A stretch of DNA of 21,297 nt from a virus: positions 1 to 21,297 of IMG/VR virus record IMGVR_UViG_3300028837_000424. One strand, given 5' to 3'. Position numbers and translations under genes: made by a program. Numbering within the stretch: the stretch's first letter is position 1; every line of letters begins with the position of its first letter. Below, one piece after another: positions 1 through 17,555 of the stretch. The notes under the pieces were generated by a model. It saw nothing but the letters and a program-made list of their open reading frames with translations. It was not told where the DNA came from and made no database searches.

Positions 1-87
1 ATATTGGAAAAAATGTTTGAATAATAGCCCCTCAATCTTACCTATATTATATATATAACATCTTTTTATTTGACTTCCTTGTAATTC

Positions 88-106
88 TTATCTAAGTTAT
101 AGATAA
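88..106 (+). promoter_or_regulatory. Inverted repeat over the start of the first gene (possible operator)
   Basis: Perfect 7-bp arms, TTATCTA (88-94) and TAGATAA (100-106), flank a 5-base spacer. The right arm ends on the A of the ATG start at 106. It could be an operator or an RNA hairpin that masks the start. There is no Shine-Dalgarno sequence upstream of this ATG, so initiation is unusual in any case. The arms are pure AT-rich sequence in an AT-rich leader, so chance is a real alternative. The region 1-87 holds no complete gene: positions 1-24 read as a possible C-terminal tail (ILEKMFE, then stop) of an upstream gene, and 45-60 is a TA-rich run. Confidence 0.25.
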
Positions 107-756: not shown

Positions 757-2302
757 AGGTGACATTGTAAACGCCTGCAGAGACCGGCTTATATCCGGCT
801 TAAGGGACAGTCTTGAAAAATCCTTAACAGATAAACAACTTGAAGAAGAAGAAAACGAAAAAAGCAAAATCCGCGTACTCGCTAAATCAAATCTTTTCTA
901 CCTGGGAAAAAATATACTTGGTTATCGGGAGCTTAATAATACTCATAAACGCTGGAATGATTGGACTAATAAGCATATTGACTTGACCGGTGGTACGCCA
1001 AGTAAAAATTTAATCTTACAGCCAAGGGAAGTTTACAAGACAACGTTTTTCACCATTACTTTATCCATTGCCATTCTTTTAAACAATCCTGAATTATCAA
1101 TTCTCATAGTCAATGATACGCATGAAATTGCAAAGAACATGCTCAAGGAAATTAAATCGCACTTTGAAAAGAATGAGAAGCTGCGTGATCTGTTTGGAAA
1201 TTATGTTTCAACCGATGATTGGAGTAAAGAGTCTATTACTATCAACCGCAAGACAAAGAACATGAAAGAGAAATCTATCTCTGTTGCCGGGATAGGAACC
1301 GCTTTAACTTCAATCCATCCTGACATTATCATTGCTGATGATATTGCAGGGAAGAAAGATAAGGAATCGCAAGCAGGCAGAGACCAAACATTATCTTTCT
1401 TTCAAGACGTATGGGATTTACTTAAAAAGGACAATGGCATATACATAATGCCTGGCACCCGGAAGCATGTGTATGACATTTATAACCACATCAAAGAAGT
1501 TATCAATCCGCACCTGTTAAAAGAAAAACTACAGGGTTTCAACATCATGGAAACATCGGCACACAAAGACGGCGACCCGGACAATGATGCACTTAATTTC
1601 CCGGACATACTTCCTGAAAAGAAATTGAAAGAATTGCGCATTGTTAAAGAGGGACAAGATGGCACTGACTTTGCAACGTACATGGCAGAGTATGAACTTA
1701 GACCCCTTGACCCTAAGACGCAAATCTTTAAAGAGTTTACATTTGAAGATCATCAGCACTTGACGTATGATAAGATTGTTCAATGGACAGACCCGGCGTT
1801 AAAGGAAACAAAAACATCAGACTACTCTGCCATTGTCGTTATCGGTAGAATCAAAGACGGCGAGTTCAAGGGAAAGTTCATGTGTCTCTATGCGTCCATT
1901 GATAAGCGTCCACCGACAAAGTTAATCCAGGATCATAACAGAATTTACAGGGATATATCAGAGGTCAATGACGGAGTTATTTATCATGTTTACATGGAGG
2001 ACAATGGCTTTCAGGCGTTAATGAAAGACGGTGCAATAAGGAAATCTCTTAACGATGGAAAGGCGCCTGTACCTACTAAGGGCAAGGCGAACATGCATGA
2101 TAAGGACAGCCGTATACAATGGCAGGAGCCGTTTATAACAACCGGTGTGTATATGTTTCGCAAAGACTGGAAGAGCGCACCGGAGAATTACAGATTATTG
2201 GTTGAACAATTCCAGAATTATCCGCAGGCAAAGAAAGACGGCCCGGATGCATCACAGGGTGCATTGAAAAGAATAACCAAACGTGGGCCGGGTGTCTGGT
2301 AA
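734..2302 (+). CDS. terL: Terminase large subunit (packaging ATPase and nuclease)
   Basis: This is the motor ATPase and headful or site-specific nuclease that pumps DNA into the prohead through the portal. It has 522 residues, normal for the family. A deviant Walker A (PREVYKTT, 97-104) lacks the usual glycines but keeps Lys-Thr-Thr. Walker B is IIIADD (198-203), its last acid being the likely catalytic carboxylate. The RNase H-like nuclease is shown by D353 in WTDPALKETKTSDYSA, by E422/D423 in YMEDNGFQ, and by D505 in GPDASQG, which is the metal-binding acid pattern expected. The start at 734 lies inside the preceding gene (23-base overlap), pointing to translational coupling. The portal follows 15 bases downstream. 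Confidence 0.93.
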   Translation: MVKSKLRKGDIVNACRDRLISGLRDSLEKSLTDKQLEEEENEKSKIRVLAKSNLFYLGKNILGYRELNNTHKRWNDWTNKHIDLTGGTPSKNLILQPREVYKTTFFTITLSIAILLNNPELSILIVNDTHEIAKNMLKEIKSHFEKNEKLRDLFGNYVSTDDWSKESITINRKTKNMKEKSISVAGIGTALTSIHPDIIIADDIAGKKDKESQAGRDQTLSFFQDVWDLLKKDNGIYIMPGTRKHVYDIYNHIKEVINPHLLKEKLQGFNIMETSAHKDGDPDNDALNFPDILPEKKLKELRIVKEGQDGTDFATYMAEYELRPLDPKTQIFKEFTFEDHQHLTYDKIVQWTDPALKETKTSDYSAIVVIGRIKDGEFKGKFMCLYASIDKRPPTKLIQDHNRIYRDISEVNDGVIYHVYMEDNGFQALMKDGAIRKSLNDGKAPVPTKGKANMHDKDSRIQWQEPFITTGVYMFRKDWKSAPENYRLLVEQFQNYPQAKKDGPDASQGALKRITKRGPGVW

Positions 2303-2317
2303 AAGGAAAATATCAAA

Positions 2318-4540
2318 ATGATAAAACAGTTTCTTGATAAAGTCTTAACCAAATTTGAACCTAAACCTACAGCCGTACAGGTTGTAAGGACTAATCTATA
2401 CCAGGAGAGGGAAATACAGCAGAGGGTAACAAGCATCATTAACAAACAAGTCCCCGTCTTAGTCCAGAGAGCATTATCAAAACGAGACAGCTCTGTTGTT
2501 ATCAATGATGACATGCGAGTACATCGGGAAGCTGAAATCAAAGAGGGACAAGATCAAACAACGTTTTTAAAAGTTTATGAGCAGAATATCTGGACGTATG
2601 CAGCGGTTGACGCTATTGCTAGGAATGGCGCCAAACTTCCTATACGCATATTTGATTTGACAAAGAAGCCCGACAACGATGATGAAGAAGGTAAGCTGAT
2701 AACCGATGGTGAATCGTTTGAATTACTTAATAGTCCTAATCCGTACATGAGTAAATTTAATCTCATTTATGCAACAATAGCTTATCTGCAACTGACAGGC
2801 AACAACTACTGGGAAAAGTCTAGTCCTGATATGCCTGAACAGGTTTATGTTTTAAGGCCGGATTATACAACTGTCCTGACCTCACCACAGGAATTGATAA
2901 CAGGATATGCTTATAATCCAAATGGAGTACAGCAAAAACTTGAAAAAGAAAAAGTGTTTAGGGTCGCATTGTTTCATCCGCGTTCAGAACTGTACGGCAT
3001 GGGGGCAACACAACCGGCAGGTGCGTCTATAATCCTTGATGTCTATACGCGCACCTATGCAAAGAATTTCTTTAAGCAGGGCGGCAACGTAGACTTGTAC
3101 GCACAAGTACCGGGTGATCTTGATAATGAAGAGGCGAAAAGATTAAAGCAAGAACTAAATACTATGTGGGGCGGTGTACAAAATTCACATGAAATCAGGG
3201 TACTTGACCAGGGTACTGAAATAAAACAAATCGGTATCCAGCCGGACAAGACGTTATTGCCGGAACATAAAAAATCCAATATGGAGGAAATACTTACAGC
3301 GTTTAATGTGCCGCCGATTATGGTCGGACTCCCGAATGATACACACTACAACAATGCCAAAGAGCAGAAGATATTCTTTTGGGAAGAAACAATGATGCCA
3401 TTGATGCGGCAGCTTGAAGATGCGTTAAACAAAGAGTTCTATACGCCGTTTGACATGAAGATGAAGTTTGATTTTTCTGATATTGCAGTGCTTCAGGAAG
3501 ATTTAAAATTAAAATCAGAAACAGGAAAGACACTAATTGAATCCGGGCAATGGTCACAGAATGAAGTCAGGAAAGTTATCTGGAACATCAAACCTGCTGA
3601 AGATGAGGCCGCCGATAAACTAATCGTGCCCAAAGGCGGAGGGCAACAACAGGGTATGATGTTTGAAGCACGTTTCGTTAATCCTGAAGATAAAAACAAA
3701 CCAGCGGATAAGCCTAAGAAAAAGGACAAGCCGGGGCCTAGAACATTAAGCAAAAAGGAACTATTAGAAAAACGTCAAAAAGTAATAGCAATGTTTAATT
3801 CATTCTTTCAGTTTGGATTAAAAAAACTTGAGATAATGGCAAAGAAGATAATGAAAATTCAAGAAGATGTCGTTATTAGTTCATTGAATAAATTTAAAAA
3901 GACTTTTAGTTTTATAAAGCAAGATATAGTTAAAGATGCAATTACTGCATTAGATAAAGAAACAAAAAATATTATGAGATTGATGATTAATTCTGAAACC
4001 GCAATAACAAAAAAGTTTATCCAGGATGAATATAAAAGAATAAATAATGAAGTTATTAGTGACCAAGTATTAAAAGAGTTAACTAGCGCAACAAACGATA
4101 GGCTTGAAAAATTAGCGCAAGATTCAGCACGAAGTATTACAACTACAACACAAACAAGAGTTCAAGAACGTCTTGAAGACTTGGTCAGAAAAGACGCATC
4201 AATAAGTGAAATGACTGCAAACATACAACGCGCATTCGATGTTGAAAATAAAGGGACGGCAGTCTGGTCAAGAACGATTGCAAGAACTGAAACATTAAAA
4301 GTTTCCGGTATAACAAAAATCGAAACAATGCAGAAGAGTGGTTTTACTCATATTGAATGGATTTCAGCAGGGCCACCTGATGACAGATCAGATCATTCAT
4401 CGCTTGATGGGCAAATAAAAAAGTTTGGTGAACTATTTCCAACTGCTCATGGTGGTTTAAGATTTCCGGGAGACCCAACAGGTAATGTTGCCGATTTAGT
4501 TAACTGCCGCTGCACTTTTGTAGAGAGTTTAGGTAAGTAA
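2318..4540 (+). CDS. Portal protein with fused C-terminal Mu gpF/SPP1 gp7-like minor head domain
   Basis: This 740-residue protein is far longer than a usual HK97-type portal (about 400-500). Residues to about 450 carry portal hallmarks: SPNPYMSKFNL, LQLTGNNYWEK, FHPRSELYGMGA, FFKQGG, and FNVPPIMVGLPNDTHYNNAKEQ. A Lys/Pro-rich linker (about 455-490) leads to a helical stretch (490-640) and then a MuF-type domain: ARTETLKVSGITKIETM near 655, ISAGPPDDRSDHSSLDGQ, and a terminal NCRC (729-732). The portal forms the ring at the packaging vertex. MuF domains are minor head proteins, also found as platforms for toxins. GC content falls sharply at the linker, from roughly 45-50% to 20-27% in sampled lines, so the two parts probably have different histories. 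The stop overlaps the next ATG (TAATG). Confidence 0.9.
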   Translation: MIKQFLDKVLTKFEPKPTAVQVVRTNLYQEREIQQRVTSIINKQVPVLVQRALSKRDSSVVINDDMRVHREAEIKEGQDQTTFLKVYEQNIWTYAAVDAIARNGAKLPIRIFDLTKKPDNDDEEGKLITDGESFELLNSPNPYMSKFNLIYATIAYLQLTGNNYWEKSSPDMPEQVYVLRPDYTTVLTSPQELITGYAYNPNGVQQKLEKEKVFRVALFHPRSELYGMGATQPAGASIILDVYTRTYAKNFFKQGGNVDLYAQVPGDLDNEEAKRLKQELNTMWGGVQNSHEIRVLDQGTEIKQIGIQPDKTLLPEHKKSNMEEILTAFNVPPIMVGLPNDTHYNNAKEQKIFFWEETMMPLMRQLEDALNKEFYTPFDMKMKFDFSDIAVLQEDLKLKSETGKTLIESGQWSQNEVRKVIWNIKPAEDEAADKLIVPKGGGQQQGMMFEARFVNPEDKNKPADKPKKKDKPGPRTLSKKELLEKRQKVIAMFNSFFQFGLKKLEIMAKKIMKIQEDVVISSLNKFKKTFSFIKQDIVKDAITALDKETKNIMRLMINSETAITKKFIQDEYKRINNEVISDQVLKELTSATNDRLEKLAQDSARSITTTTQTRVQERLEDLVRKDASISEMTANIQRAFDVENKGTAVWSRTIARTETLKVSGITKIETMQKSGFTHIEWISAGPPDDRSDHSSLDGQIKKFGELFPTAHGGLRFPGDPTGNVADLVNCRCTFVESLGK

Positions 4541-4743
4541 TGGAAAAAACAAACTGGAAAGAAATATCAGGGCAAGAATATTACAGTCTCTTTGATAGGG
4601 ATAAACACGAAATAGAAACTCTTGGTGGTTATCCACCGATATCGATTATTCGTAATAAAGATACTAAAAAAGAAGAATTAAAAGTAGTCGAAGATAAGGA
4701 AGCTAAATTTTATAAGGCTGAAAAATGGAAAAGATTAATATAG
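4540..4743 (+). CDS. Small protein of unknown function
   Basis: This 67-residue charged protein starts on the last base of the portal stop codon (TAATG), so it is probably translated by coupling. It contains LGGYPPISIIRNKDTKKEEL and ends in a basic KWKRLI. I recognise no family and see no membrane segment, signal peptide or cysteines. Its composition is as AT-rich as the MuF part of the portal upstream, so the two may have arrived together. Its place between portal and protease suggests a virion or assembly accessory role, but that is inference only. Confidence 0.65.
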   Translation: MEKTNWKEISGQEYYSLFDRDKHEIETLGGYPPISIIRNKDTKKEELKVVEDKEAKFYKAEKWKRLI

Positions 4744-4886
4744 TCGATGCGATTAATAAAGCAAGTGACGCGCTGATTGAGCATAGACAATACTTTGTCA
4801 TGAAAAACGGAACGCAACCAGAGAAGGAAAAGGAAAAAGTGTTGGCTTTAATCATTGGCATAGTTAAAAGAGGAATAGAGAAATGA
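4725..4886 (+). CDS. Small protein of unknown function
   Basis: This 53-residue ORF fills the interval between the preceding small gene and the protease. It overlaps the former by 19 bases and the latter by 4 (ATGA). The product, beginning MEKINIVDAINKASDALIEH, is predicted to be mostly helical, with a charged middle (QPEKEKEKV) and a hydrophobic stretch ALIIGIV (41-47) that is too short to span a membrane. The tight overlaps on both sides are the main evidence that it is expressed. No family is recognised. Confidence 0.6.
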   Translation: MEKINIVDAINKASDALIEHRQYFVMKNGTQPEKEKEKVLALIIGIVKRGIEK

Positions 4887-6613
4887 AAAAGATACGCGGC
4901 CGGGGTATGGGACAGGGGAATGCAGCGCAAAGGGACGGCGGTGCGGATAAATGCGTATGCCCTGAATGCGGACATGAGAAACAACATGATAGGGGTACGC
5001 CTTGCGTAAACGAAGTATGTCCTGAATGCGGATCTAAAATGATTGGAAAAGAAGACAAATCAAAAAACGTAATTAACAAACCGTTTCCAAATGAACATAG
5101 CGGAAGATTAGTTGACCCTAAAAAGTTTGATAAGTTTGCGAGACAAAATGATAAGGGCGGCGCGGGTATTGATTTTATCTTTGGCATTACGTCAGATGAT
5201 AAATCAGTATTACAGGCTATCCGGTTTGACGCTAAGAAATTCACACCGGCAGAAGCAAGAGCCTGGCTTAAGGATCATAATCATACACCCATCCTTTTTG
5301 AAGAGGCCGTTAATAAGGGACTCAAGAAGGAGAAGTTTGAGACATCGGAAGTTGACGATCATAAGCATACGGTTGACCTGGATGAAAAAGGAAACGGCAG
5401 AACATCAATCTTTAATGAACATTTCCATGATGTAGTTGAATTTGATATTAAGGAAAAGGACGGTCATGTCCACAGCATTATCAAGAATAAAGTAAAAAGC
5501 AAAGTTATAAAGTATAGTGACGGTCTATTGATAAAACACTTTAGCATATTGTGTAATGAATATAAACAGCAGAGATTAAAAGATAATATTGAATTGGACA
5601 TTATCAAAGAAGCAAAGGCAGTATATGAAGAAATGCAATCAAGAAAAGACATCCGGCTAAATGAAGATAATCTCAATAGACTATCTCTTGAATTGGTAAA
5701 CATTATCAAAGGTGAAAGAGATGTTAGAACTATTTTCAATAGCAGTACTTTGTATAGCGGTGGCAATAGTACTGTACAAAATAAACACATGGTAGAATTG
5801 AAATTTAAAGTTATAAACAAAAAGGAGTCGGAATTAAAGGGTTTGATGATGCTTGATTTGGGATATGTCATTGACACGAAAAAGGACGGCAATGACGCGG
5901 AGAATATTCACAAGGCCATTGAGATTGAAACACCTGAAATTGACGTTGATGAAAATGATATTGTTACTGTCCTTGCAAAATCAATCGAGCCTTACAAGAT
6001 AGACAAACAATATCATGCAATAATTAAGGACGCTATTGTTAAGGAAGTCAATCAAGGCGAGCAGAAACCAGACAGGGTAAAGTATATCATTAAGCTTGCT
6101 GATGAAAAGAAAATATTAAAAGCAGACAAAACCATTATTGAGGATTTGAAAAAGCTTGGATGGATAGCCGATTCAAATAATACAAATGATGGGGATGTTT
6201 TAATAAATAAAAAAATACCAATCATTAAATCTGAAAGGCTATTGAAAGAAGGCAAAGTCCTGGGCGTTGTCTATGAACCTAATACTATTGACCTCCAAGG
6301 CGATTACGCAACAGCGGAAGAGATAGAGAAAGCGGCACATAAGTTTATGGAGGATCATCAAACCATAAACGAGATGCACCGCAAATCTTTATCCAAGGCC
6401 GATGTTGCAATAATCGAAAGTGGTATTGCCCGCGCTGATTTTGAAGAGGGCGGTCAAACTATTATCACGGGGTCATGGGTATTAGGTGTCAAGGTGAAAT
6501 CGCCAAGGCTTAGAAAGTTAGTAAAAGAAGGAAAGATTAACGCCTTTTCAATGGAAGGTCAGTCAATGAGAGGTAAACCAATACCAGACATTGAATCACA
6601 AGTGAAAGGTTAA
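4883..6613 (+). CDS. XkdF-like capsid maturation serine protease with N-terminal zinc-ribbon-like segment
   Basis: This 576-residue protein seems to be built of several parts. Residues 24-49 carry CVCPECG and VCPECG (Cys 24, 26, 29, 41, 46, 49), a zinc-ribbon-like arrangement. Residues about 70-135 contain IRFDAKKFTPAEARAWLKDH, a segment often seen at the N-terminus of phage prohead proteases. About 205-320 is an AT-rich helical stretch of unknown role. Residues 455-570 match the XkdF-type protease: VLGVVYEPNTIDLQGDYATA, HQTINEMH, and GSWVLGVKVKSP before FSMEGQ. Candidate catalytic residues are His492 or His499 and Ser556. It would clip scaffold and capsid during prohead maturation, and the scaffold-like and major capsid genes follow at once. 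Family function is established; the zinc site is inferred from spacing. Confidence 0.85.
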   Translation: MKKIRGRGMGQGNAAQRDGGADKCVCPECGHEKQHDRGTPCVNEVCPECGSKMIGKEDKSKNVINKPFPNEHSGRLVDPKKFDKFARQNDKGGAGIDFIFGITSDDKSVLQAIRFDAKKFTPAEARAWLKDHNHTPILFEEAVNKGLKKEKFETSEVDDHKHTVDLDEKGNGRTSIFNEHFHDVVEFDIKEKDGHVHSIIKNKVKSKVIKYSDGLLIKHFSILCNEYKQQRLKDNIELDIIKEAKAVYEEMQSRKDIRLNEDNLNRLSLELVNIIKGERDVRTIFNSSTLYSGGNSTVQNKHMVELKFKVINKKESELKGLMMLDLGYVIDTKKDGNDAENIHKAIEIETPEIDVDENDIVTVLAKSIEPYKIDKQYHAIIKDAIVKEVNQGEQKPDRVKYIIKLADEKKILKADKTIIEDLKKLGWIADSNNTNDGDVLINKKIPIIKSERLLKEGKVLGVVYEPNTIDLQGDYATAEEIEKAAHKFMEDHQTINEMHRKSLSKADVAIIESGIARADFEEGGQTIITGSWVLGVKVKSPRLRKLVKEGKINAFSMEGQSMRGKPIPDIESQVKG

Positions 6614-6616
6614 TGT

Positions 6617-7168
6617 ATGGCAAAGAAAAGAAAGTTTGACCGCCTGAACAATCTGGTCAATATGGCAGTTAGTGCCGTTGCCCTAGTTGATGACGGTGCA
6701 AACAATAAAAAAATGTTTTTGTTTAAACGCATGAAAGGAAATACCATGAATGAGAAACTTGCAATTAAACTCTTAAAAGCCTGTGAAACGGAAGATGAGA
6801 GAAACGAAGTCCTTGAAGGCCTTGATGAAGATGTCAGGGGTAAGGTTGAAAAGGCGCTTGAAAGCGAACTGGACGTAAACAAAGCCGGTGCGCGATTCAA
6901 TAAAGATGCCCTTGCTATTCTTAATTCCATGAAGACCGCTATTGACAAGCTGGTTGCAATGGCCGGGCCTGCAAAGAAAGAGGACAAAACAGAAGATGAA
7001 AAGCCTGTCAAGAAAACCGATGACGCTGATAAAGAAATATCCGATGACGACTTTGCCAAAATGGTAAGCGATGAAATCAAATATGAATTGCTTGGTGAAG
7101 AGCGTCCGGCGACATCACCCGCTGATGTACTTGCAAAGGCACTCAAAGACATTGTTGCAGCGAAATAA
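6617..7168 (+). CDS. Putative scaffolding protein
   Basis: This 183-residue protein sits between protease and major capsid protein, the standard scaffold position. Residues 19-39 (SAVALVDDGANNKKMFLFKR) resemble the self-processing N-terminal motif often found in XkdF/scaffold-type proteins. The rest is acidic and strongly helical, with a Lys/Glu/Asp-rich low-complexity part (about 115-160), as expected for a transient core that is proteolysed or expelled. The start used lies 3 bases after the protease stop, with no strong Shine-Dalgarno. An internal ATG at 6747 (MNEKLAIK) follows an AAAGGAAA ribosome-binding-like run and could give a shorter scaffold of about 140 residues, an arrangement known in other phages. 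No direct sequence signature defines the family. Confidence 0.65.
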   Translation: MAKKRKFDRLNNLVNMAVSAVALVDDGANNKKMFLFKRMKGNTMNEKLAIKLLKACETEDERNEVLEGLDEDVRGKVEKALESELDVNKAGARFNKDALAILNSMKTAIDKLVAMAGPAKKEDKTEDEKPVKKTDDADKEISDDDFAKMVSDEIKYELLGEERPATSPADVLAKALKDIVAAK

Positions 7169-7199
7169 TTTTAAACAGTAAACACGAAAGGAAAATAAC

Positions 7200-8462
7200 A
7201 TGGATAAGTTAGAAGCACAAAAACTTATTGGTAAAACAATAAGAGCATTTAAAAAGAGTAATGTCATAAGGGACGGTCAGTTCGCTATCAATAACGAACG
7301 CGGCCTTAACCCGATTGAACTTCACAAGCGAGAGATTGATCCCAATACCAAAGACCATGAAGAAATCAAGATTGTAAAGTTTCAGAACATGTGCGATGAA
7401 CTTCACATCGTTTCAAAGATGTTAAGGGTTCCCGTAAAAGACCTGAAGCTTTATAAACGCTTTGAAGAGTTTATGGAAACATCAGAACTCGGTAAAGCAA
7501 TGACCACGACCAATACGGCCGACTGGGTTCCTGATGGAATGTCCCGGCAGCTTATCGATCTCATACAGATTGATCTTATGATTGCGAAGTTGTTTGGTAT
7601 TACTGTTGTTCCGCAAGGTGTTGAGAGTCTTGACCTTCCTATTAAGACAGGACGGTCAACGGCATATCTTAAATCTGAAGGTTCTGCAATTACTGAATCA
7701 TCAATCTCGGATGGAAAGGTAAATCTCTTGCCTGTTGCCATTGGTGATTATGTGCAGGTGTCCGATGAGCTGACAGAAGATGCGGCAGTTGCTACTATGG
7801 CAGTAGTACGAGAAGATATCGGTAATGTAATGGCACGGGCAATTGACGATGCTATTGTTAATTCTGATACTTCCGTTGTTCATCAGGACAGTGATGTTAC
7901 GCTTGCCAATGACCACAGGAAAGCATGGGATGGTTTAAGAAGGCTTGCAATTGCAAATTCTTATACCAGGTCACTGTCTACTTTTACGTCAAACAAGATT
8001 ACGTCTCTTGTTACGGATATGGGTAAATATGCCGCTGCTTTCAGAAATCTGGTTTTTATATCCGGTGTTAAAGTGCAGGGCAAAACCAAAGACTTGGTTG
8101 ATGCCAATAATAACAGGGTCTTTACAGAGAATGTCAACACTGGCCCTGAATCCCTTAACATTCTTCCCGGTCAGATTGGCAAACTCGGTGCATCACCTTA
8201 TGTCATTACGGAGTTTATGCGGGAAGATTTAAATACTTCCGGTGTATACGACGGCTCTGTGACTAATAACGGTGCGCTTCTTGTTTGTCGCAGGGATTTA
8301 TTTACCAGGGGTATGAAACGGCAGATGAAACTTGAAACTGACAGAAACATTGTGTCCGGTCTTAATCAGATGGTTGCAACTACCCGTCAGGATTTCAAGC
8401 CTCGCGCTGCGATTGCCACTGAGCGGATTGTTAATTACGGTATCGATATTGATATCACTTAA
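7200..8462 (+). CDS. Major capsid protein (HK97 fold)
   Basis: This 420-residue protein is the expected size and follows protease and scaffold. Residues 1-100 are charged and helical (a possible delta-like region). Residues 105-420 show the HK97-type major-capsid pattern: ADWVPDGMSRQLIDLIQ, VESLDLPIKTGRSTAYLKSE, VAIGDYVQVSDELTEDAAVA, ARAIDDAIVNSD, and a C-terminal part with ILPGQIGKLGASPYVITEFM then RDLFTRGMKRQMKLETDRN. It forms the icosahedral shell. An AAAGGAAA motif 6 bases before the ATG is a good Shine-Dalgarno for a highly expressed gene, and a hairpin terminator follows the stop. Whether the N-terminal region is removed by the upstream protease cannot be seen. Confidence 0.93.
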   Translation: MDKLEAQKLIGKTIRAFKKSNVIRDGQFAINNERGLNPIELHKREIDPNTKDHEEIKIVKFQNMCDELHIVSKMLRVPVKDLKLYKRFEEFMETSELGKAMTTTNTADWVPDGMSRQLIDLIQIDLMIAKLFGITVVPQGVESLDLPIKTGRSTAYLKSEGSAITESSISDGKVNLLPVAIGDYVQVSDELTEDAAVATMAVVREDIGNVMARAIDDAIVNSDTSVVHQDSDVTLANDHRKAWDGLRRLAIANSYTRSLSTFTSNKITSLVTDMGKYAAAFRNLVFISGVKVQGKTKDLVDANNNRVFTENVNTGPESLNILPGQIGKLGASPYVITEFMREDLNTSGVYDGSVTNNGALLVCRRDLFTRGMKRQMKLETDRNIVSGLNQMVATTRQDFKPRAAIATERIVNYGIDIDIT

Positions 8463-8484
8463 TGCCCTCCTGTAAGGCTGAAAC

Positions 8485-8519
8485 AAATGCAGGGGTGTTT
8501 AATCCGCATCCCTGCATTT
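8485..8519 (+). terminator. Intrinsic terminator after the major capsid gene
   Basis: A 13-bp stem (8485-8497 with 8507-8519) contains one G-U pair and has a 9-base loop. The arms read AAATGCAGGGGTG and CATCCCTGCATTT. The A/T ends of the arms supply a short U run (TTTT at 8517-8520). It lies 23 bases after the capsid stop, so it probably punctuates the operon and allows partial read-through into the neck and tail genes. Confidence 0.75.
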
Positions 8520-8540
8520 TACTAACTAAGAAAGGACAGT

Positions 8541-8714
8541 ATGAACCTGATAGCCTGTACAATCTTCTTTAACGATACCCCTGATTTATTTGAAAGGTTA
8601 TTGATTTCAATCAGGGATACTGTTGATAAGATTGTATGTGTTGATGGTGCATATAAGGAGTTTTCTCATAACAAACCATATTCCACAGCTGTCTCTCCCC
8701 GGCATTCATTATAA
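8541..8714 (+). pseudogene. 5' fragment of a glycosyltransferase gene (internal deletion)
   Basis: A good Shine-Dalgarno (AAAGGAC) precedes the ATG at 8541. The 57 residues begin like a GT-A glycosyltransferase of the family-2 type found near phage capsid genes: NLIACTIFFNDTPDLFERLL, then VDKIVCVDGAY. The frame then runs out of similarity near residue 49 and stops at 8714. The matching C-terminal part of such an enzyme (GIHYNKKHNVIKDGQGKIL, then HTPELRGTRR) lies in another frame just downstream. The middle, with the DxD metal site, is missing. I infer an internal deletion that also shifted the frame, with the junction at about 8680-8700. Such enzymes are thought to decorate virion proteins or host surfaces, and this one should be inactive. 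Family assignment is from motif memory only. Confidence 0.55.
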
Positions 8715-9090
8715 TAAGAAACATAATGTCATAAAAGACGGCCAGGGGAAGATATTAAATATCCCCATCCATGATAAACCATTATGCGAGAGTGCTAAAA
8801 TTATCCATACTCCTGAATTAAGAGGCACGAGAAGATTAGGACTTGATGGGGAATACATGCGTACACGCAATGAGAATAATATCCCTATACCTGTCAATAC
8901 ATTTATCTCTAATGAAATTACACCTATCGGGTTAAGGTTCAAGGCAACTGGCATTATAAAAAAGTTCACTGGAAATGATCCGGTAACTAATAAAGATATC
9001 ATTGCGGAAAAAGATGACGTTGTTTTTATGTCTAAAGAGTCATCCGAAATATTAATGAATCACTATCAAGGTCAATGGGAATACGCATAA
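8623..9090 (+). CDS. 3' glycosyltransferase remnant joined to a small head-protein-like domain
   Basis: The open frame contains two unlike parts. From about 8697 to 8890 it resembles the C-terminal end of the glycosyltransferase started at 8541 (SLPGIHYNKKHNVI, LRGTRRLGLDGEYMRTRNEN). The last ~60 residues (GLRFKATGIIKKFTGNDPVT, then a stretch ending ILMNHYQGQWEYA) look like a small phage protein with the common ending in which a residue chain closes on YPGQWE-like sequence, often seen near head-tail connector genes. The true start is unsure. TTG at 8623 and ATG at 8644 lack a ribosome site. ATG at 8857 would give 77 residues and exclude most of the remnant. The stop overlaps the next ATG (TAATG). 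Expression of the C-terminal part is plausible; the rest is probably relic. Confidence 0.5.
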   Translation: MIRLYVLMVHIRSFLITNHIPQLSLPGIHYNKKHNVIKDGQGKILNIPIHDKPLCESAKIIHTPELRGTRRLGLDGEYMRTRNENNIPIPVNTFISNEITPIGLRFKATGIIKKFTGNDPVTNKDIIAEKDDVVFMSKESSEILMNHYQGQWEYA

Positions 9091-9284
9091 TGGCAAACGC
9101 TAAAATGATAATTACCCTTAAGAAAGAAAAGTGCATCGAAGATTTTATAGAAATGGTTGCGTTATTAAATGAACTTAATGGTATGATTCCTGATTGGATG
9201 ATAGTAGAATCTAAACCGATTGCCGATAGAATATCAGAAATTATATCCGAATGGGTAACTGTTAAAGATAACAAAGGAAGATAA
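9090..9284 (+). CDS. Small protein of unknown function
   Basis: A 64-residue acidic, helical protein beginning MANAKMIITLKKEKCIEDFI. I chose the ATG at 9090 because it overlaps the previous stop as TAATG, with GGGA 9 bases upstream. An alternative ATG at 9075 adds MGIRI but has its AAGG only 3 bases away. No domain, signal or membrane segment is visible. It lies just before the head-tail connector gene, with a good ribosome site for that gene inside the end of this one (AAAGGAAG). It may be a small virion or assembly protein, but nothing in the sequence decides. Confidence 0.6.
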   Translation: MANAKMIITLKKEKCIEDFIEMVALLNELNGMIPDWMIVESKPIADRISEIISEWVTVKDNKGR

Positions 9285-9286
9285 AG

Positions 9287-9874
9287 ATGTCAATTGGCAC
9301 TCTAGACAGTATCACTACAGCAGACGTAAAAGCATATCATGGTATAACCGGCACGGACAAGGACGGCGTTATAGCCGTTCACTTACCATTGGTTGCCGAT
9401 GAAATACAGAAGTATTGCAAACATGATTTTCTGTCACAGTCAAGGGAAGAGAAACCGTTGATTGAAAAACTTACCGATAGATTCTATTTACACAATAGAC
9501 CTATTGCGTCTATTACATCTATCGTTGAAGGTGGACTTACATTAATTGAAGATGATGACTTTTATGTGGATAAGGGAACCGGTCTTGTTGAAAAGATAAC
9601 AGACTTGAGTGACATTACGCGGGGGCAAACTTCAAAAGGTCATTGGTCAAGGGTAAGAAATGACATTGTAGTGACGTATGTTGGCGGCGTTGATTTGACC
9701 GGAGCGCAAGATGTTGTAAAGGCATTTTATATAATGGTCGGTATCGGCGCAGGATTAATGAAGCGTACCTTTGTTGATAATGAAGGTGTCGAGGCCGTTG
9801 TGTTTATTAATACCGTACCAAAGGACATTAAAACAATATTGGACAGATACGTCCATCGTTGGTATAGCTGGTAA
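9287..9874 (+). CDS. Head-tail connector (HK97 gp6/SPP1 gp15-like adaptor)
   Basis: This protein of 195 residues has the helical N-terminus typical of phage connector adaptors: TTADVKAYHGITGTDKDGVI, then LPLVADEIQKYCKHDF. A beta-rich middle (FYLHNRPIASITSIVEGGLTL) and a GLVEKI ... DIVVTYVGG segment follow, then a C-terminal helical part with VKAFYIMVGIGAGLMKR. Members form the ring that docks under the portal. The Shine-Dalgarno AAAGGAAG lies 6 bases before the ATG, and the next gene starts 8 bases after the stop. Order (portal, capsid, then adaptor and gp10-like neck gene) fits siphophage head-tail joining. I am confident of the family class, less of the exact subfamily. Confidence 0.8.
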   Translation: MSIGTLDSITTADVKAYHGITGTDKDGVIAVHLPLVADEIQKYCKHDFLSQSREEKPLIEKLTDRFYLHNRPIASITSIVEGGLTLIEDDDFYVDKGTGLVEKITDLSDITRGQTSKGHWSRVRNDIVVTYVGGVDLTGAQDVVKAFYIMVGIGAGLMKRTFVDNEGVEAVVFINTVPKDIKTILDRYVHRWYSW

Positions 9875-9882
9875 GGATTATT

Positions 9883-10383
9883 ATGTCATTAGGATTAAAC
9901 GTAACGATTGATAAAAGAGACTTAGCGGAAATAAATCTTTTCGTTAAGAAATTTCCTACTGTTGTTGACCAGGCAACTAAAGCAGCGTCTGCAAAAGGGA
10001 AAGGCTTAATCATACGTTCAACAAAGATAGGAACGGGCAGAACACGACGCGAATGGAAAACAAGAAAGATAGCCATGTTTTCTTATGAAATATTTAATTC
10101 ATTAAAACGTGCATTGTTTCTTGAAACAGGTACGGGATTATTCGGGCCTAATAAGGCAAAGGGAGAGATAAGAGGTAAAAAAATAAGTCCAATTACCGGT
10201 AAGCCTTTTATTTTAAGATGGAAACCAATAAAAGGAAATAAAGTTGGTAAAGATGTCTTTGCGGTTTCTGTTAAAGGCATAAGGGCGCATCCGATGATTA
10301 AACCGAACGTTAAAAAGATTCAAAAGATACTTACAGAGGAAATAAGAAAACGGGTTTTAAATGCATGGAAGAAATTAAAATAA
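9883..10383 (+). CDS. HK97 gp10-like neck/head-closure or tail-completion protein
   Basis: This basic 166-residue protein carries LFLETGTGLFGPNKAKG (about 79-95) and the C-terminal VSVKGIRAHPMIKPNVKKIQ (about 125-145). This pairing of an edge motif with a terminal H-P-x-[I/L]-x-P block is the hallmark of HK97 gp10-type neck proteins. The role is joining the filled head to the tail or closing the head after packaging. An AAGGATT ribosome site precedes the ATG, and the next gene's AAGGAG begins right after this stop. The gene is more AT-rich than the connector gene just before it. Minor tail protein is the alternative label used for the same family. Confidence 0.75.
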   Translation: MSLGLNVTIDKRDLAEINLFVKKFPTVVDQATKAASAKGKGLIIRSTKIGTGRTRREWKTRKIAMFSYEIFNSLKRALFLETGTGLFGPNKAKGEIRGKKISPITGKPFILRWKPIKGNKVGKDVFAVSVKGIRAHPMIKPNVKKIQKILTEEIRKRVLNAWKKLK

Positions 10384-10393
10384 GGAGTAAGAA

Positions 10394-11188
10394 ATGTCTT
10401 CATTAGAATTCTTCAGACCAGATTCACAATTAGCATTATTCTCACCTAGCTTAAAATTAGGTATGGAATTACAGGCGGGTAATGTTTCTAATATGAGTGC
10501 TGCGCAAATATTTGGATATAATGCTAATTTACAAGCATCGGAAACATTATGGGATTATGGCGGAACTAAAACATGGTTTACAGCGGCGAAAACGCTTGGT
10601 ATTTCTTCTGGCAGTGCAAATGATGCAGCAGCGGGTACGGGTGCAATAACAATTATAATCACAGGTGTAAATGCTGCCTATGCTTTAGTAACCGAAACGA
10701 TTACAATGAACGGACAGGCAAAAGTAGAAACAGTAAATCAATATTTGAATCTTCATGAAATGTATGTTGCAACATTTGGTGCAACTGGAAATAATGTTGG
10801 TATTATTTATGCTTATGATACATCCGATGCTATTGTTGCAGGCGTACCCCAAACAGCCACAAAAGTTGCAGGTACAATTGCAGCGGTTAAAGGAAGGTCG
10901 AGGCTTGGTGTTTATACAGTGCCAGCAGGAAAAACAGCATATATGATTTCCAGAACACCGTATTTTTTATTACAGACACTTCAATTTGGGACATTGACGT
11001 TAAGGATAAGACCTTTTGGATTATCTTGGTGGGAATTTCTTTATGGTTATGGAGTAACAATAAATGATGGTAGTGATTTACAAATACCGCCTATCATACC
11101 TGAAAAATCTGATATTGAGTTTCTTGCACAAACATCAGTAGCTTCAGCAGTAACAATTGAATCTGGTTTAATTTTGATAGATGATTAA
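10394..11188 (+). CDS. Putative virion decoration/structural protein
   Basis: This 264-residue protein has a strong Shine-Dalgarno (AAGGAG, 6 bases before ATG), as for an abundant virion component. From about residue 50 it is beta-rich with the pattern ETLWDYGGTKTWFTAA, GISSGSANDAAAGTGAITII, VTETITMNGQAKVETVNQYL and YTVPAGKTAYMISRTPY. The last two motifs recur in uncharacterised structural proteins of environmental tailed phages. There is no signal peptide or coiled coil. It lies right after the neck genes and before the small surface-type genes, so a capsid or neck decoration protein is the best guess. I cannot assign a named family, and its place in the virion is inference. Confidence 0.6.
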   Translation: MSSLEFFRPDSQLALFSPSLKLGMELQAGNVSNMSAAQIFGYNANLQASETLWDYGGTKTWFTAAKTLGISSGSANDAAAGTGAITIIITGVNAAYALVTETITMNGQAKVETVNQYLNLHEMYVATFGATGNNVGIIYAYDTSDAIVAGVPQTATKVAGTIAAVKGRSRLGVYTVPAGKTAYMISRTPYFLLQTLQFGTLTLRIRPFGLSWWEFLYGYGVTINDGSDLQIPPIIPEKSDIEFLAQTSVASAVTIESGLILIDD

Positions 11189-11332: not shown

Positions 11333-11683
11333 ATGGCAACAATTATAAATAAAAACTTTCATCGTAAAACATTAACCGGTATCAAATCAGGTGATACAAT
11401 TGAAAATTGTAATTGTACGCAACAAAATATTAATACTGATGTTTGTAAAGGACTAAAAAATCTAACTATTAAAAATAGCAATATCAGGAATTGCGTATTT
11501 CCAGTGGATACAAAATTCATTGGATGCAAACCGTATCATGCTGAAATTGTTATTGAACCTGAATTGACACAAGCAGAACTTGCCAATATGGAATTAAAAA
11601 TGATTCAAGAACAATATGGTGAGATTGCAAAAATAGAAGCTAAAAAAGTTTTTAATTTAAAAGATTCAATCGGAGTTATATAA
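11333..11683 (+). CDS. Small Cys/Asn-rich protein, mini beta-helix-like
   Basis: The 116-residue product begins with MATIINKNFHRKTLTGIKSG, followed by ENCNCTQQ, LKNLTIKNSNIRNCVF and KFIGCKP. The alternating hydrophobic and Asn/Cys positions look like two or three coils of a right-handed beta-helix or pentapeptide-like ladder. Five Cys residues occur (26, 28, 38, 54, 65). Residues 75-116 are a charged helix. I recall similar short genes in environmental tailed phages but no function for them. Its ATG follows the preceding stop directly, and its own stop shares a base with the next ATG (TAATG), linking it to the beta-helix protein downstream. A partner or capping role for that protein is possible but only inferred. 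Confidence 0.6.
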   Translation: MATIINKNFHRKTLTGIKSGDTIENCNCTQQNINTDVCKGLKNLTIKNSNIRNCVFPVDTKFIGCKPYHAEIVIEPELTQAELANMELKMIQEQYGEIAKIEAKKVFNLKDSIGVI

Positions 11684-12765
11684 TGGCTGATGTATGGTAT
11701 GACCCAAACGGGTCAAATACAGCCCCTTATGATACGCAAGCAAAAGCAGCAACAAATTTGCAAACGGCTGTTAACACGGCTGGTGGCGCAGCGGGAAATA
11801 ATCTCTATACAGTTGCTAGAGCAGTTGAAACATTAGCGGCGACTATTGATGTTAATGTAGGTAGCGGCGACTTGACAAGCGGTTATATTAATTGGATAGG
11901 GGTAAATACCAGCGGTGTTGATGACGGTACTAGATTTGTAATGGATGGCAATAATGCTGCCACTAATTGCATTTTAATAAATAAAAATTACTGGAAATTT
12001 AAAAATCTTGAATTAAAAAACGCAACAGGAGATGGATTTAATACAGCAGCAACAGGAGATTATCTTACCCTGGAAAACATTTATTCTCATAATAATGGAG
12101 CGAGGGGTTTTGACATGGCCGCCTCTATCCTGTCTACTTTAGATAGATGCAGGGCGGAAAATAATACAGCAGAGGGGATATTATTATGGGCTTATAATAT
12201 CGCTCATTTTTGTACTGCAATAGGAAATGGAGGTCGCGGTTTTTATTTGGATCTTTATGCTCAAATGATCGGCTGTCTTTCTCATAATAATACAACGTCT
12301 CAAATTCTCGCCCGTCAAGGTAGTGCAATATTTAATTGTATAGTTGACGGTTGGAATGGCTCCGCCGCTGCGGGTGTTGGGATAGCCATAAACGCTGTAA
12401 ACATTGCCATTAGGGGTACGCGCATAACAAATAACGCTACTGGAATAAGTTTAACAGGGGCAGATTTTGCAAGTTATGATTTTTGTGGAACTTATGGCAA
12501 TACAGCGGTTTCAAATATCCCGGCCGGTTGTCAATTAATTGACTTGGGTAATAATGTTGCAATGGCAGATGATAAGTATGTAGGCGGTCGCGGTGGTGGT
12601 GGTACGGATAATTTCAATCTTGCGTCTGATGCTGAATTAAGGAATACACAAATTGCGATTGATGCAACAAATAACTTTTACATTGCAGCAGGTTTACCGC
12701 CTATTGCCGGTGCCGGTGGAGGTTTACTTTCCAATAGAGGTATGACAGGAGGAATAAATGGCTAA
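11683..12765 (+). CDS. Right-handed parallel beta-helix protein (spike/decoration-like)
   Basis: This 360-residue protein opens with VWYDPNGSNTAPYDTQAKAA, the typical entry to pectate-lyase-like phage beta-helix proteins. Residues about 80-290 hold repeated coils such as NYWKFKNLELKNATGDGF, LTLENIYSHNNGARGF, LDRCRAENNTAEGI and FCTAIGNGGRGFYL, with asparagine-ladder positions. The tail from about 300 is Gly-rich (GGRGGGGTD and AGAGGG). Such proteins are tailspikes, depolymerases or decoration proteins. No catalytic residues can be assigned by eye. It sits between neck and tail-tube genes rather than at the tail-tip end, which fits a head or neck appendage more than a tailspike. It overlaps the next gene by 8 bases. 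Confidence 0.75.
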   Translation: MADVWYDPNGSNTAPYDTQAKAATNLQTAVNTAGGAAGNNLYTVARAVETLAATIDVNVGSGDLTSGYINWIGVNTSGVDDGTRFVMDGNNAATNCILINKNYWKFKNLELKNATGDGFNTAATGDYLTLENIYSHNNGARGFDMAASILSTLDRCRAENNTAEGILLWAYNIAHFCTAIGNGGRGFYLDLYAQMIGCLSHNNTTSQILARQGSAIFNCIVDGWNGSAAAGVGIAINAVNIAIRGTRITNNATGISLTGADFASYDFCGTYGNTAVSNIPAGCQLIDLGNNVAMADDKYVGGRGGGGTDNFNLASDAELRNTQIAIDATNNFYIAAGLPPIAGAGGGLLSNRGMTGGING

Positions 12766-14229: not shown

Positions 14230-15186
14230 ATGAGTTCACAAGGAGATTCATCAAACTTAGTTGATGTAGGTATTGCGTTAGGTGCAGGGGCTTTTGGTAC
14301 GGCAGCCGAGTCTTTTACTTTAGGCCTGTTGTGTACTAACTTTGGGACAACAGAGGAATTCGCGCCAGAGCCTGTCAATCAGGTAGGTTCAAGTCTTCAA
14401 ATAAGGAAAACGACAACGCCGCCGATATTCCTTAACCTTTCATTAGGCTTTGCACTTGATGTAGGTGACAATACGTCTGGTAATATCGGCCATTTTTTAC
14501 AATCTATTTTCGGTACGGATACCATCGGCGAATCTCCACCCTATACACATACGTTTACCCGCAATGATACGAGTATACCCACCTGGTTTAATCTCTGGTC
14601 TGATAAAGATATTGATTCAAAGCAGTATAGAGGTTTCAGGGTAAATACCCTTACGTTTTCCATTGATTCAGGTACGGGCGCGGTCACAGTTACGGTCGAG
14701 GGTTTCTATCAGATAGACAGCGAGCTTGCAACGCAGTCCCTTACCTATTCAACCTCTCCCATTCTTACGGCACACAATGCGAGTATATGGACGCTAGGCG
14801 GCTCACCTAATACGAATTTTAACACTTGCGAGATAACGATTACGCGGGACAATCAGAGACATAAGGCCATTTCAAATATACAGACAATAGATAATATCTA
14901 TTCTGCCAACTTTGGGATTGCCGTAAGTCTTGCCGGTTTGGACTTTACATCTGAAACGGAATATGACAAGTACAGGGCAAAGACAGCAACACCATTCAGG
15001 CTGACTCTTACAGATGCAAATTCAAACTACATTGATTTTAACTTTCCGGCAATGATTTACAATAGCTGGACACCTCCGGCCCCATCTGCAAATGCTCTTT
15101 TAAACATTGCCACTACACTTTTTGCAACAGAAGATAATAATGAAGTAGTATTGCAGAATGAAAGGTCAACGGCTTACAGTGCGTAA
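14230..15186 (+). CDS. Major tail tube protein
   Basis: The strong AAAAGGAGC ribosome site before ATG 14230 and the position between tail terminator and chaperone indicate the abundant tube subunit. The product is 318 residues and beta-rich: FTLGLLCTNFGTTEEFAPEP, PIFLNLSLGFALDVGDNTSG, THTFTRNDTSIPTWFNLWSD, YRGFRVNTLTFSIDSGTGAV followed by VEGFY, and a second similar half (HKAISNIQTIDNIYSANFGI). The internal two-part layout is that of phage tail-tube proteins of the larger non-contractile type. There is no sheath gene next to it, which fits a siphovirus. The 32-base leader upstream is AT-rich, but no promoter could be defended. Confidence 0.82.
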   Translation: MSSQGDSSNLVDVGIALGAGAFGTAAESFTLGLLCTNFGTTEEFAPEPVNQVGSSLQIRKTTTPPIFLNLSLGFALDVGDNTSGNIGHFLQSIFGTDTIGESPPYTHTFTRNDTSIPTWFNLWSDKDIDSKQYRGFRVNTLTFSIDSGTGAVTVTVEGFYQIDSELATQSLTYSTSPILTAHNASIWTLGGSPNTNFNTCEITITRDNQRHKAISNIQTIDNIYSANFGIAVSLAGLDFTSETEYDKYRAKTATPFRLTLTDANSNYIDFNFPAMIYNSWTPPAPSANALLNIATTLFATEDNNEVVLQNERSTAYSA

Positions 15187-15227
15187 GAATAATTTAACAA
15201 TGTATTAAAATCAGAAAGGATTACACC

Positions 15228-15479
15228 ATGAACAAAGAGGAAAAAACAAACCAATTATCCAAGTCACAGACAACGGCAAAGGAAGATGAACTTACCGATG
15301 AAGAAGAATACGTTAAGGATTGGCATAAAAAAGATATGATTTCATTTGAAGATTTTGAAAACATTGAAGGAATCCTAAATTATGTATTTATAAGAAGAAA
15401 AAAAGCCTTTGAAAAAAAAACAATAAAGAAAGAAGAAATACAGAAAATATCGGATATTTTGAGAAGTACGTTGGATTAA
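15228..15479 (+). CDS. Tail assembly chaperone, short form (gpG-like)
   Basis: This 83-residue acidic protein lies directly upstream of the tape measure, the fixed place of gpG-like chaperones. Its beginning is MNKEEKTNQLSKSQTTAKED, then EEEYVKDWHKKD, and it ends in RSTLD at 15479. An AGAAAGGATT Shine-Dalgarno sits before the ATG. Most ribosomes would make this form, which coats the tape measure during tail assembly. A nine-A run (15412-15420) near codon 62-64 is the point where a minority of ribosomes would slip to the longer G-T product. The start is certain by spacing, and the gene's low complexity is normal for the family. Confidence 0.82.
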   Translation: MNKEEKTNQLSKSQTTAKEDELTDEEEYVKDWHKKDMISFEDFENIEGILNYVFIRRKKAFEKKTIKKEEIQKISDILRSTLD

Positions 15480-15646
15480 AAAAAACAAAATTAGTAAATA
15501 ATTTAAATGAATTTATTAATATGACGTGGTTGCAAATTGATTGTTTAATAAAAGCACATAATAGATATGAAAAAATGATAGAACAAAAAAGCAAACATGC
15601 TGAATCGACTAATAGATTAAGGAATAAAATAAGACATGGCCGATAA
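15228..15646 (+). CDS. Tail assembly chaperone, frameshifted long form (gpGT-like)
   Basis: A -1 slip in the run 15412-15420 (A AAA AAA in the zero frame) joins 64 residues of G to a 75-residue extension in the -1 frame that ends at 15646, giving about 139 residues. The -1 frame is blocked by TGA at 15410-15412 and opens only at 15413, exactly at the A run. The extension contains IGYFEKYVGLKKTKLVNNLN and WLQIDCLIKAHNRYEKMIEQ, and its end overlaps the tape-measure start by 11 bases. T-like extensions bind the tape measure while the G part coats it. The arrangement G/T-frameshift then tape measure is established in long-tailed phages; the ratio of the two forms cannot be seen. Confidence 0.82.
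15412..15420 (+). promoter_or_regulatory. Slippery A9 run for programmed -1 frameshifting
   Basis: Zero-frame codons read GAA AAA AAA ACA. Slipping back one base on AAA AAA leaves perfect re-pairing (A AAA AAA type). An AT-only inverted repeat lies 23 bases downstream (arms AAAATATC and GATATTTT at 15444-15451 and 15453-15460), which could fold to a weak 7-bp hairpin with a CGG loop. That spacing is longer than the usual 5-9 bases, so a stimulatory role is doubtful. Confidence 0.75.
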
Positions 15647-17555
15647 AGAACTGGGGTTAAGAGTAACGGCAAAAGGAACACAAAGAGCCAAAAAAGGTAT
15701 TGAGGGTGTCCGTGTTTCTATATCAAGATTAAGAAATCAAATGCTTCTCGGTACTCTTGCCGCTGGACTATTAACCGTTGGTTTTAAAAAACTTATTGGA
15801 TTAGCATCTGAACAGGAAAGAGTTGAAAAAAAACTTGCTCAAACAATAAAAAGCACAGGGATGGCAGCAGGCTTTACTTTCGATGAACTTACTAAGATGG
15901 CAAGTGCATTGCAGGACATCACTACTTTTGGTGATGAAGCTATTATTGAATCACAATCATTACTTGCAACATTTACAAATATTGGTAAAGATGTTTTTCC
16001 AGAGGCACTTAAAGCAGTACTTGACGTTTCTGTTGGTATGGGGCAAGATTTAAAATCTTCAGCAATACAACTTGGCAAAGCATTAAACGATCCTATATTG
16101 GGTATATCCGCACTATCAAGAACCGGAATTACATTTAATGATGTCCAGAAAGACATGATAAAGACAATGGTTGATGCGGGTGATACAGCAGGAGCACAAG
16201 CGGTTATATTAGAAGAATTAAATAAACAATTTGGCGGGCAAGCGGAAGCGGCGGCTAAAGGTTTCGGGACTATTGATCAGCTTGGTAATTCTTTGGGCGA
16301 TCTTGGAGAGGTATTAGGACAATCGATAGGGAAATCATCTTTATTTCAAAACGCAATATATTTTCTAAAAAACTCTACTGATGATTTGATTGGTGCGCTT
16401 AGTGAAGCAAGAATAGAAATAGAAGGTTTGACAAGTACAGAAACAGAGCTTGTTAAAATAGAGCGAGAATTAATAAAAAACGGTATTCAGTTAGAAACTA
16501 CTTTAGAAAGGCAAATAGACGCTGGGAAAACAGCAAAAGAAGAGGAGCAACGGCTAATAGTACAAAGAAAAATTGCAGCAGCAGAAGCAAAAGGAGAAGC
16601 TGTTGCGATTTTTGATGTTGTCGGTGCATTTGCTGATGAATCGTTATCGGCTGATGAAAGCTCTAAAAGTCTATTGAAGAGAAGGAAAGAGTTACAAAAA
16701 CAAATAAAAGAAGAAAAAGAACTTGCAAAAGTGGTAAAAGAAAAACCGAAACCGAAACCGAAAGCAAAAGAAGAAGAAAAAGAAAAAGAAGATGACATAG
16801 GAGTTGAACTTGATTTTGAAAAATTCAGAGCAGAAGAAAAGCAAAAGATAATTGATGAACAAAGAAAAAAAGATTTAGAACAACAGCAAATATTTAATGA
16901 ATCAAAAAATGAATTAGCTACAAATCAATTTGATTTAGAAAGACAAAAATTACAAGAAAGTTTCCTTTCAGATTTTGAAATTGTTAAAGGAAATGATGAA
17001 GCAGTTACAGCATTGCGTGAAGCCAGACAAGTTAAAATGAATGAAATAGATAAAAGAGAAACAGATTTCTTTGAAGAACAACAAATGAGAAAAATAGATA
17101 TAGCAAAACAAACCACAGGATTTTTAGCGGATAATCTTAGTCTACTTGCAAGTGAAGTTAAAGAATTTTCAGGAATTGCACAAGTGGCAGCAATTGCAGA
17201 CGCAACAGTTGCAGGCTACGAAGCCGCAATCCATTCTTTTAAATTTGGCGCTAAACTTGGTGGCCCTATTCTTGGCGGTATTTTTTCCGCTATATCATTA
17301 GGTGCAACAGGTGCTTTAATAAGTAAAATCGCAGCAACATCTTTTCAAACATCTGAAGGGATGACAAGAACGGTACCAGGTGCATCAACGGAGCGCGTTT
17401 TAATTCCCGCTCATGGTGGTGAGGAAATAGGCAGGCGAAGCGGTGCAAGTATTAATATAACTGTCAATGGCGCAATAGATCCGGACGCAACAGGTCAGGC
17501 AGTATTCACAGTATTAAATAAATTTATGAAAGTAAACGGAGTATCTTTCGCATGA
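15636..17555 (+). CDS. Tape measure protein
   Basis: The protein has 639 residues and is helix-rich; it sets tail length and is ejected with the DNA. Evidence: a start overlapping the GT-type chaperone, an N-terminal hydrophobic segment (QMLLGTLAAGLLTVGFKKLI, about 35-54), a TMP-type core (LQDITTFGDEAIIESQSLLA, then FPEALKAVLDVSVGMGQDLK and LGKALNDPILGISALSRTGI), a long charged coiled-coil part (270-480) with a Lys/Pro KPKPKPKAK tract near 370, and a second hydrophobic region (GAKLGGPILGGIFSAISLGA, about 535-565). At roughly 0.15 nm per residue, 639 residues predict a tail near 100 nm (rule of thumb). It overlaps the next gene by ATGA. The middle is more AT-rich than the ends. Confidence 0.9.
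   Translation: MADKELGLRVTAKGTQRAKKGIEGVRVSISRLRNQMLLGTLAAGLLTVGFKKLIGLASEQERVEKKLAQTIKSTGMAAGFTFDELTKMASALQDITTFGDEAIIESQSLLATFTNIGKDVFPEALKAVLDVSVGMGQDLKSSAIQLGKALNDPILGISALSRTGITFNDVQKDMIKTMVDAGDTAGAQAVILEELNKQFGGQAEAAAKGFGTIDQLGNSLGDLGEVLGQSIGKSSLFQNAIYFLKNSTDDLIGALSEARIEIEGLTSTETELVKIERELIKNGIQLETTLERQIDAGKTAKEEEQRLIVQRKIAAAEAKGEAVAIFDVVGAFADESLSADESSKSLLKRRKELQKQIKEEKELAKVVKEKPKPKPKAKEEEKEKEDDIGVELDFEKFRAEEKQKIIDEQRKKDLEQQQIFNESKNELATNQFDLERQKLQESFLSDFEIVKGNDEAVTALREARQVKMNEIDKRETDFFEEQQMRKIDIAKQTTGFLADNLSLLASEVKEFSGIAQVAAIADATVAGYEAAIHSFKFGAKLGGPILGGIFSAISLGATGALISKIAATSFQTSEGMTRTVPGASTERVLIPAHGGEEIGRRSGASINITVNGAIDPDATGQAVFTVLNKFMKVNGVSFA

Follow-up and report, generated by a model that had tools for sequence, protein, structure and literature searches.

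In phage lambda, the tail assembly chaperones G and GT are produced through a -1 ribosomal frameshift, the established mechanism for this pair (PMC5009743). G/GT is the textbook example of conserved ribosomal frameshifting in phages, and annotation tools seek ribosomal slippery motifs. Here we examine a G/GT locus in a 21,297-nucleotide stretch of viral DNA (IMG/VR record IMGVR_UViG_3300028837_000424, positions 1 to 21,297; hereafter the window), in which a run of nine A's (A9) lies at the junction of G and T. From the statistics of A9 sites in related loci, we infer that GT of the window is probably made through slippage of RNA polymerase rather than of the ribosome.

Runs of nine A or T residues cause efficient slippage of bacterial RNA polymerase, as in Thermus dnaX (PMC5009743), and a run of nine that is conserved in length among homologues has been proposed as a mark of purposeful slippage (PMC1088944). 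One paper briefly raises transcriptional slippage as a possibility for the tape-measure protein of a prophage (PMC6095929). We found no earlier report of it in a phage tail chaperone, in a search that covered few subscription papers, and such a case may be new.

The window shares with lambda the gene order (tube, G, T and tape measure), a T frame in -1, an overlap into the tape-measure region and the presumed role of the products. The lambda slip site is GGGAAAG, whereas the window has nine A's and no downstream structure. Its G is also only 83 amino acids long, with 19 codons past the slip site, and its A9 relatives use the +1 frame as well. Thermus thermophilus dnaX resembles the window in having an A9 run, two products per gene and no need of a ribosomal stimulator, and dnaX too relies on ribosomal frameshifting in other organisms. 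Slippage produces the shorter protein in dnaX, whereas in the window it would produce the longer. In the Shigella genes spa13 and mxiE, slippage extends the product at its C terminus, again in an operon for the assembly of a nanomachine (PMC5009743), but these genes belong to a cellular type III secretion system and encode unrelated proteins. Insertion sequence (IS) elements with A9 slippage show a swap of ribosome and polymerase within one gene type (PMC1088944), although for a transposase and not for tail assembly.

In the mechanism we propose, most transcripts of the window locus would carry nine A's and be translated to G. A minority would gain one A as RNA polymerase copies the A9 run, through re-pairing of the nascent RNA with the homopolymer in a position shifted back by one base. 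The ten-A mRNA, translated in the ordinary way, would then fuse the T extension of 75 codons to 62 codons of G, yielding a predicted GT of about 139 amino acids whose first 62 codons are common to G. By analogy with lambda, G may coat the tape measure and the T part may recruit the tail-tube protein.

Runs of exactly nine A's form a separate class of slip site

Relatives were fetched via the conserved N-terminal domain of the tape-measure protein, as 80 viral and 80 genome loci and later another 80 viral loci. The first sample contained 159 unique loci and the second 43 new ones, for a total of 202, all from one tape-measure superfamily and related by descent. A G open reading frame followed by a -1 T frame that ends at the tape-measure start was present in 149 of the 202, with G and T overlapping at the slip site, and some relatives are already annotated as G/GT (e.g. 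Rhodobacter phage RcRhea and Gordonia phage Malibo). Because this layout is so widely shared, that of the window is ordinary. Together with its position between tube and tape-measure genes and its -1 T frame, this supports the assignment of the locus as a phage G/GT tail-assembly-chaperone pair, in agreement with the original prediction from the window sequence.

The related junctions held two populations of slip sites. One comprised ordinary heptamers (GGGAAAN, A6 or A7 followed by C or G, CCCTTTA, and T6 or T7), and the other runs of exactly nine A's. About half of the related loci carry classical heptamers with downstream structure, and a -1 ribosomal shift is how lambda makes GT. An ordinary programmed -1 frameshift is the foremost alternative for the window. 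Two lysyl-tRNAs would slip back in tandem at A_AAA_AAA (15413-15419), either unaided or with weak stimulators; this heptamer is in phase within the overlap (the G frame reads GAA AAA AAA ACA) and T lies in -1. We regard this reading as possible, though doubtful, for the reasons that follow.

First, the sites are defined by run length. In the 159 loci of the first sample, the 500 nt before the tape measure contained 92, 24, 10, 19, 1 and 1 runs of A6, A7, A8, A9, A10 and A11, respectively, in 79.5 kb, compared with 441, 133, 34, 7, 0 and 0 in the remaining 871.5 kb. Enrichment before the tape measure was two- to threefold for A6 to A8 and about thirtyfold for A9 (at least nine A's, p = 1.5e-17). 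As the idea of an A9 class arose from this sample, the prediction was written down before it was tested on the 43 new loci. There, the same interval held seven A8, ten A9 and one A10 in 21.5 kb, against 14 A8 and four A9 in 158.6 kb elsewhere. A control that allows for lysine-rich protein ends gave the same picture, with A9 at 27 of 166 G ends and at none of 760 other gene ends.

Second, A9 runs are indifferent to codon phase. Among runs offering an in-phase productive heptamer, the numbers in phases 0/1/2 were 0/0/18 for A6, 0/11/2 for A7, 2/7/0 for A8 and 10/7/7 for A9 (A9 versus A6-A7, p = 2.6e-4). A6 and A7 sit in the phases needed for tandem tRNA slipping, whereas A9 is phase-independent, so that run length in the A9 class is conserved regardless of phase. 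In phase 0, nine A's are also the minimum for A_AAA_AAA; this part of the class is uninformative, and a ribosomal shift could account for these 10 of the 24 A9 loci, but it leaves unexplained why runs in phases 1 and 2 also peak at exactly nine. In two homologues (L060 and L076) the A9 run is retained while its phase differs, and the class recurs across unrelated G families.

A further five loci (L188, L189, L202, L204 and L148) share an A8 run followed by GC, with a TAG two codons on, in one fixed phase and with T in -1. This A8 subgroup is intermediate between the heptamer and A9 classes.

The window belongs to the A9 class. It has a homopolymer of at least nine A's at the frame junction, its only A9 run in 21.3 kb, no downstream structure, and an unproductive A7 heptamer 14 nt upstream. 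The A7 heptamer bears directly on the ribosomal alternative. It is in phase and equal to the one within the A9 run, and would divert ribosomes in -1 through AGC CTT to TGA, a stop after two codons. Ribosomal slipping at A_AAA_AAA would thus be partly wasted, because the A7 at 15398-15404 leads to the TGA at 15410. For RNA polymerase, only the A9 of these two runs reaches the slippage threshold.

T is found in either direction from A9 sites

The direction of T was compared within a family of 29 unique loci in which both G and T were recognised by profile searches. In all 20 members with other sites (GGGAAAN, A6, A7 or A8) T was in -1. Among the A9 members, T was in -1 in five (L112, L211, L212, L223 and L235) and in +1 in four homologous loci (L196, L201, L208 and L245), an association of direction with A9 (Fisher p = 0.005) that comes from a small, post hoc test. 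The +1 frames are real coding sequence rather than sequencing slips, because differences in T between +1 pairs fall mostly at third codon positions and protein identity is kept at 56-80%. Only homology-based calls were used as evidence for direction, as an open-frame heuristic mis-called some loci as +1. Two of these, L115 and L143, are placed in -1 by homology.

The +1 frame is out of reach for a -1 heptamer but not for the loss of one A or the gain of two, and the ribosomal shift leaves these +1 T frames unexplained. Length-specific, phase-free slipping in two directions is what RNA polymerase slippage predicts and what a -1 heptamer does not. In addition, the excess of -1 loci (one A added) over +1 loci is in line with E. 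coli RNA polymerase, which makes insertions about three times as often as deletions (PMC6260861). Access to two frames from A9 was found in one homologous family, which is not the window's own.

Sliding of the ribosome along the A run, in place of a tandem tRNA slip, would also lead out of frame, as in E. coli (PMC4363877), and permit both -1 and +1. We consider this improbable. In E. coli, ribosomes yield robust out-of-frame product only from A11, and little from A9 or A10 (PMC4363877), while the junction runs peak at nine, with ten and eleven rare.

A9 sites lack downstream RNA structure

RNA folding further distinguished the two classes. In the stretch 3-53 nt downstream, with either kind of shuffle, heptamer sites had a mean z of about -2 (n = 80) and A9 sites a mean of about 0 (n = 30), a difference (p ~3e-7) that held against A6-A8 sites alone (p ~5e-5) but depended on the stretch chosen. 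It reached significance for stretches that begin at 3 or 5 nt and end at 45, 53 or 63 nt, but not for the 0-70 nt directly after the site. The window itself has next to no structure there (dG -1.9 kcal/mol across 60-70 nt, z ~0 to +0.8), which bears out an earlier description of the nearby hairpin as weak. Scans with Rfam and for tRNAs and terminators returned nothing at the slip site.

The downstream stimulatory structure expected of a -1 ribosomal frameshift was therefore seen neither in the window nor in the A9 class as a whole, and its absence is left unexplained by the ribosomal reading. It is not fatal to that reading, because some proven bacterial frameshift sites also have no established stimulator (PMC4066793). 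The original prediction had implied a lambda-like ribosomal shift at a pure-A heptamer, with a stimulator that may differ from that of lambda. The heptamer is indeed there. The ribosomal shift is not the best fit, because the A9 class is length-specific, phase-independent, without downstream structure and associated with either frame in one family.

Evidence against polymerase slippage

Besides the size of the direction test and the dependence of the structural difference on the stretch chosen, several observations weigh against polymerase slippage at the window locus. Ribosomes could use the in-phase A_AAA_AAA within its A9 run, a heptamer that GeneTack includes in its list of frameshift sites (PMC3711429). 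One A9 locus, in Vibrio phage L010, combines the A_AAA_AAG phase with a strong hairpin (z ~-3.6), and A9 loci may therefore be mixed. E. coli RNA polymerase is more prone to slip on T than on A (PMC6260861), yet the first sample revealed no T9 class, an absence that the cost of encoding Phe-Phe-Phe could explain.

Finally, neither G nor T of the window yielded a close homologue. Profile searches gave no family match for either, no GT protein homologue was found in viral contigs and phages, and no near DNA match of the window was found in phages. A pattern search with exact gaps detected no other strains with a differing A-run length, and the tail-tube and distal tail proteins yielded no usable relatives as search anchors. 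Around EYVKDW, the window G weakly resembled its counterpart in L012 (E = 0.005-0.009 within a small set), which in turn weakly matches the tail assembly chaperone phrog_313 (E = 0.012). Contig L003 (IMGVR_UViG_3300008516_000022, 1-10877), which comes from a different metagenome, encodes a portal protein identical to that of the window, and ends near window position 12312, short of the slip site.

Gene layout and coding potential of the window locus

The features of the locus are collected in Table 1. Recomputing the reading frames returned every position given in the original prediction, namely the TGA at 15410-15412, the A9 run at 15412-15420, the 75 codons of T and the 11-base overlap with the tape-measure gene. 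After that TGA, the -1 frame is open for 77 codons, 75 of them past the slip site, up to the TAA at 15644-15646, while the third frame meets a stop at 15424. Gene calling restricted to single frames would leave 15480-15635 empty, as had been anticipated, since the plus strand has no gene there other than the -1 T frame.

Table 1. Features of the G/GT locus, with positions in the window
Feature	Position	Strand	Basis or remark
Tail tube (major tail) protein gene, upstream of G	14230..15186	+	PF18906 Phage_tube_2, 36.7 bits (cut-off 27)
Ribosome-binding site of gene G, AAAGGA	15215..15220	+	7 nt before ATG; from sequence
Gene G, short tail assembly chaperone, 83 amino acids	15228..15479	+	Open reading frame, position, positive codon usage
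In-phase A7 heptamer A_AAA_AAA, unproductive ribosomal slip site	15398..15404	+	Codons AGA AAA AAA GCC
TGA closing the -1 frame just upstream of the A9 run	15410..15412	+	Reading frames
A9 run, putative slip site	15412..15420	+	Sole A9 in window; A9-class member at G/T junctions
T extension, -1 frame, 75 codons plus TAA	15419..15646	+	Open frame, codon usage, T frame in relatives
Tape-measure protein gene, overlapping the T end by 11 bases	15636..17555	+	PF06791 TMP_2, phrog_27166, E = 7e-47

The open -1 frame is unlikely to be a product of chance. Under a Markov model of the region, 77 open codons arose by chance in 0.05% of trials and 55 codons in 0.5%. Scored by the codon usage of the window, gene G was positive, and the part of T past the G stop scored above 99.8% of wrong-frame segments of equal length, although below 99% of in-frame segments.

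That T is instead a separate small gene of 41 codons, starting without a frameshift at the in-frame ATG at 15521, is very unlikely. This ATG has no Shine-Dalgarno sequence upstream, the open frame of T begins exactly at the slip site, and G and T overlap there in relatives. Least credible of all is an error of sequencing or assembly, or a phase-variable run at the DNA level, which would place G and T in a single frame in the real genome or in a variant of it. Long A runs do attract errors and mutate readily, and the sister contig stops short of the slip site. However, about 30 independent contigs and genomes with G and T intact carry A9 at this position, as do four Vibrio phages checked (one at only 75% identity), and the run is constant in length among loci rather than variable.

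In two cultured Vibrio phages (L010 and L252), the junction A9 is conserved at 75% DNA identity, and their G and T carry no annotation beyond that of two separate hypothetical proteins. An A9 run is also present in the locus from the cultured bacterium Pleionea sediminis (L128), in a prophage. Within the window, an A8 run (15478-15485) starts inside the G stop codon and falls in the T frame. Between the head and tail genes lies a 360-amino-acid protein rich in Asn and Gly (11683-12765), which by eye resembles a right-handed beta-helix.

Implications for tail chaperone expression

Taken across the sampled relatives, the data suggest that a substantial fraction of tailed phages, about 16% going by the 27 A9 runs at 166 G ends, use polymerase slippage at a strict A9 run to make GT. 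On this reading, ribosomal and polymerase mechanisms would have been interchanged repeatedly among homologues, and slippage of the polymerase would have freed T to lie in -1 or +1. We think this generalisation likely, if far from certain. If it is true, the ratio of G to GT in A9 phages would be set by the polymerase of the host (or of the phage) and not by the ribosome. Frame predictions for these genes, including the +1 cases, would have to change. Tail chaperones would then offer a natural set of cases of a single gene that has switched many times from one mode of recoding to another.
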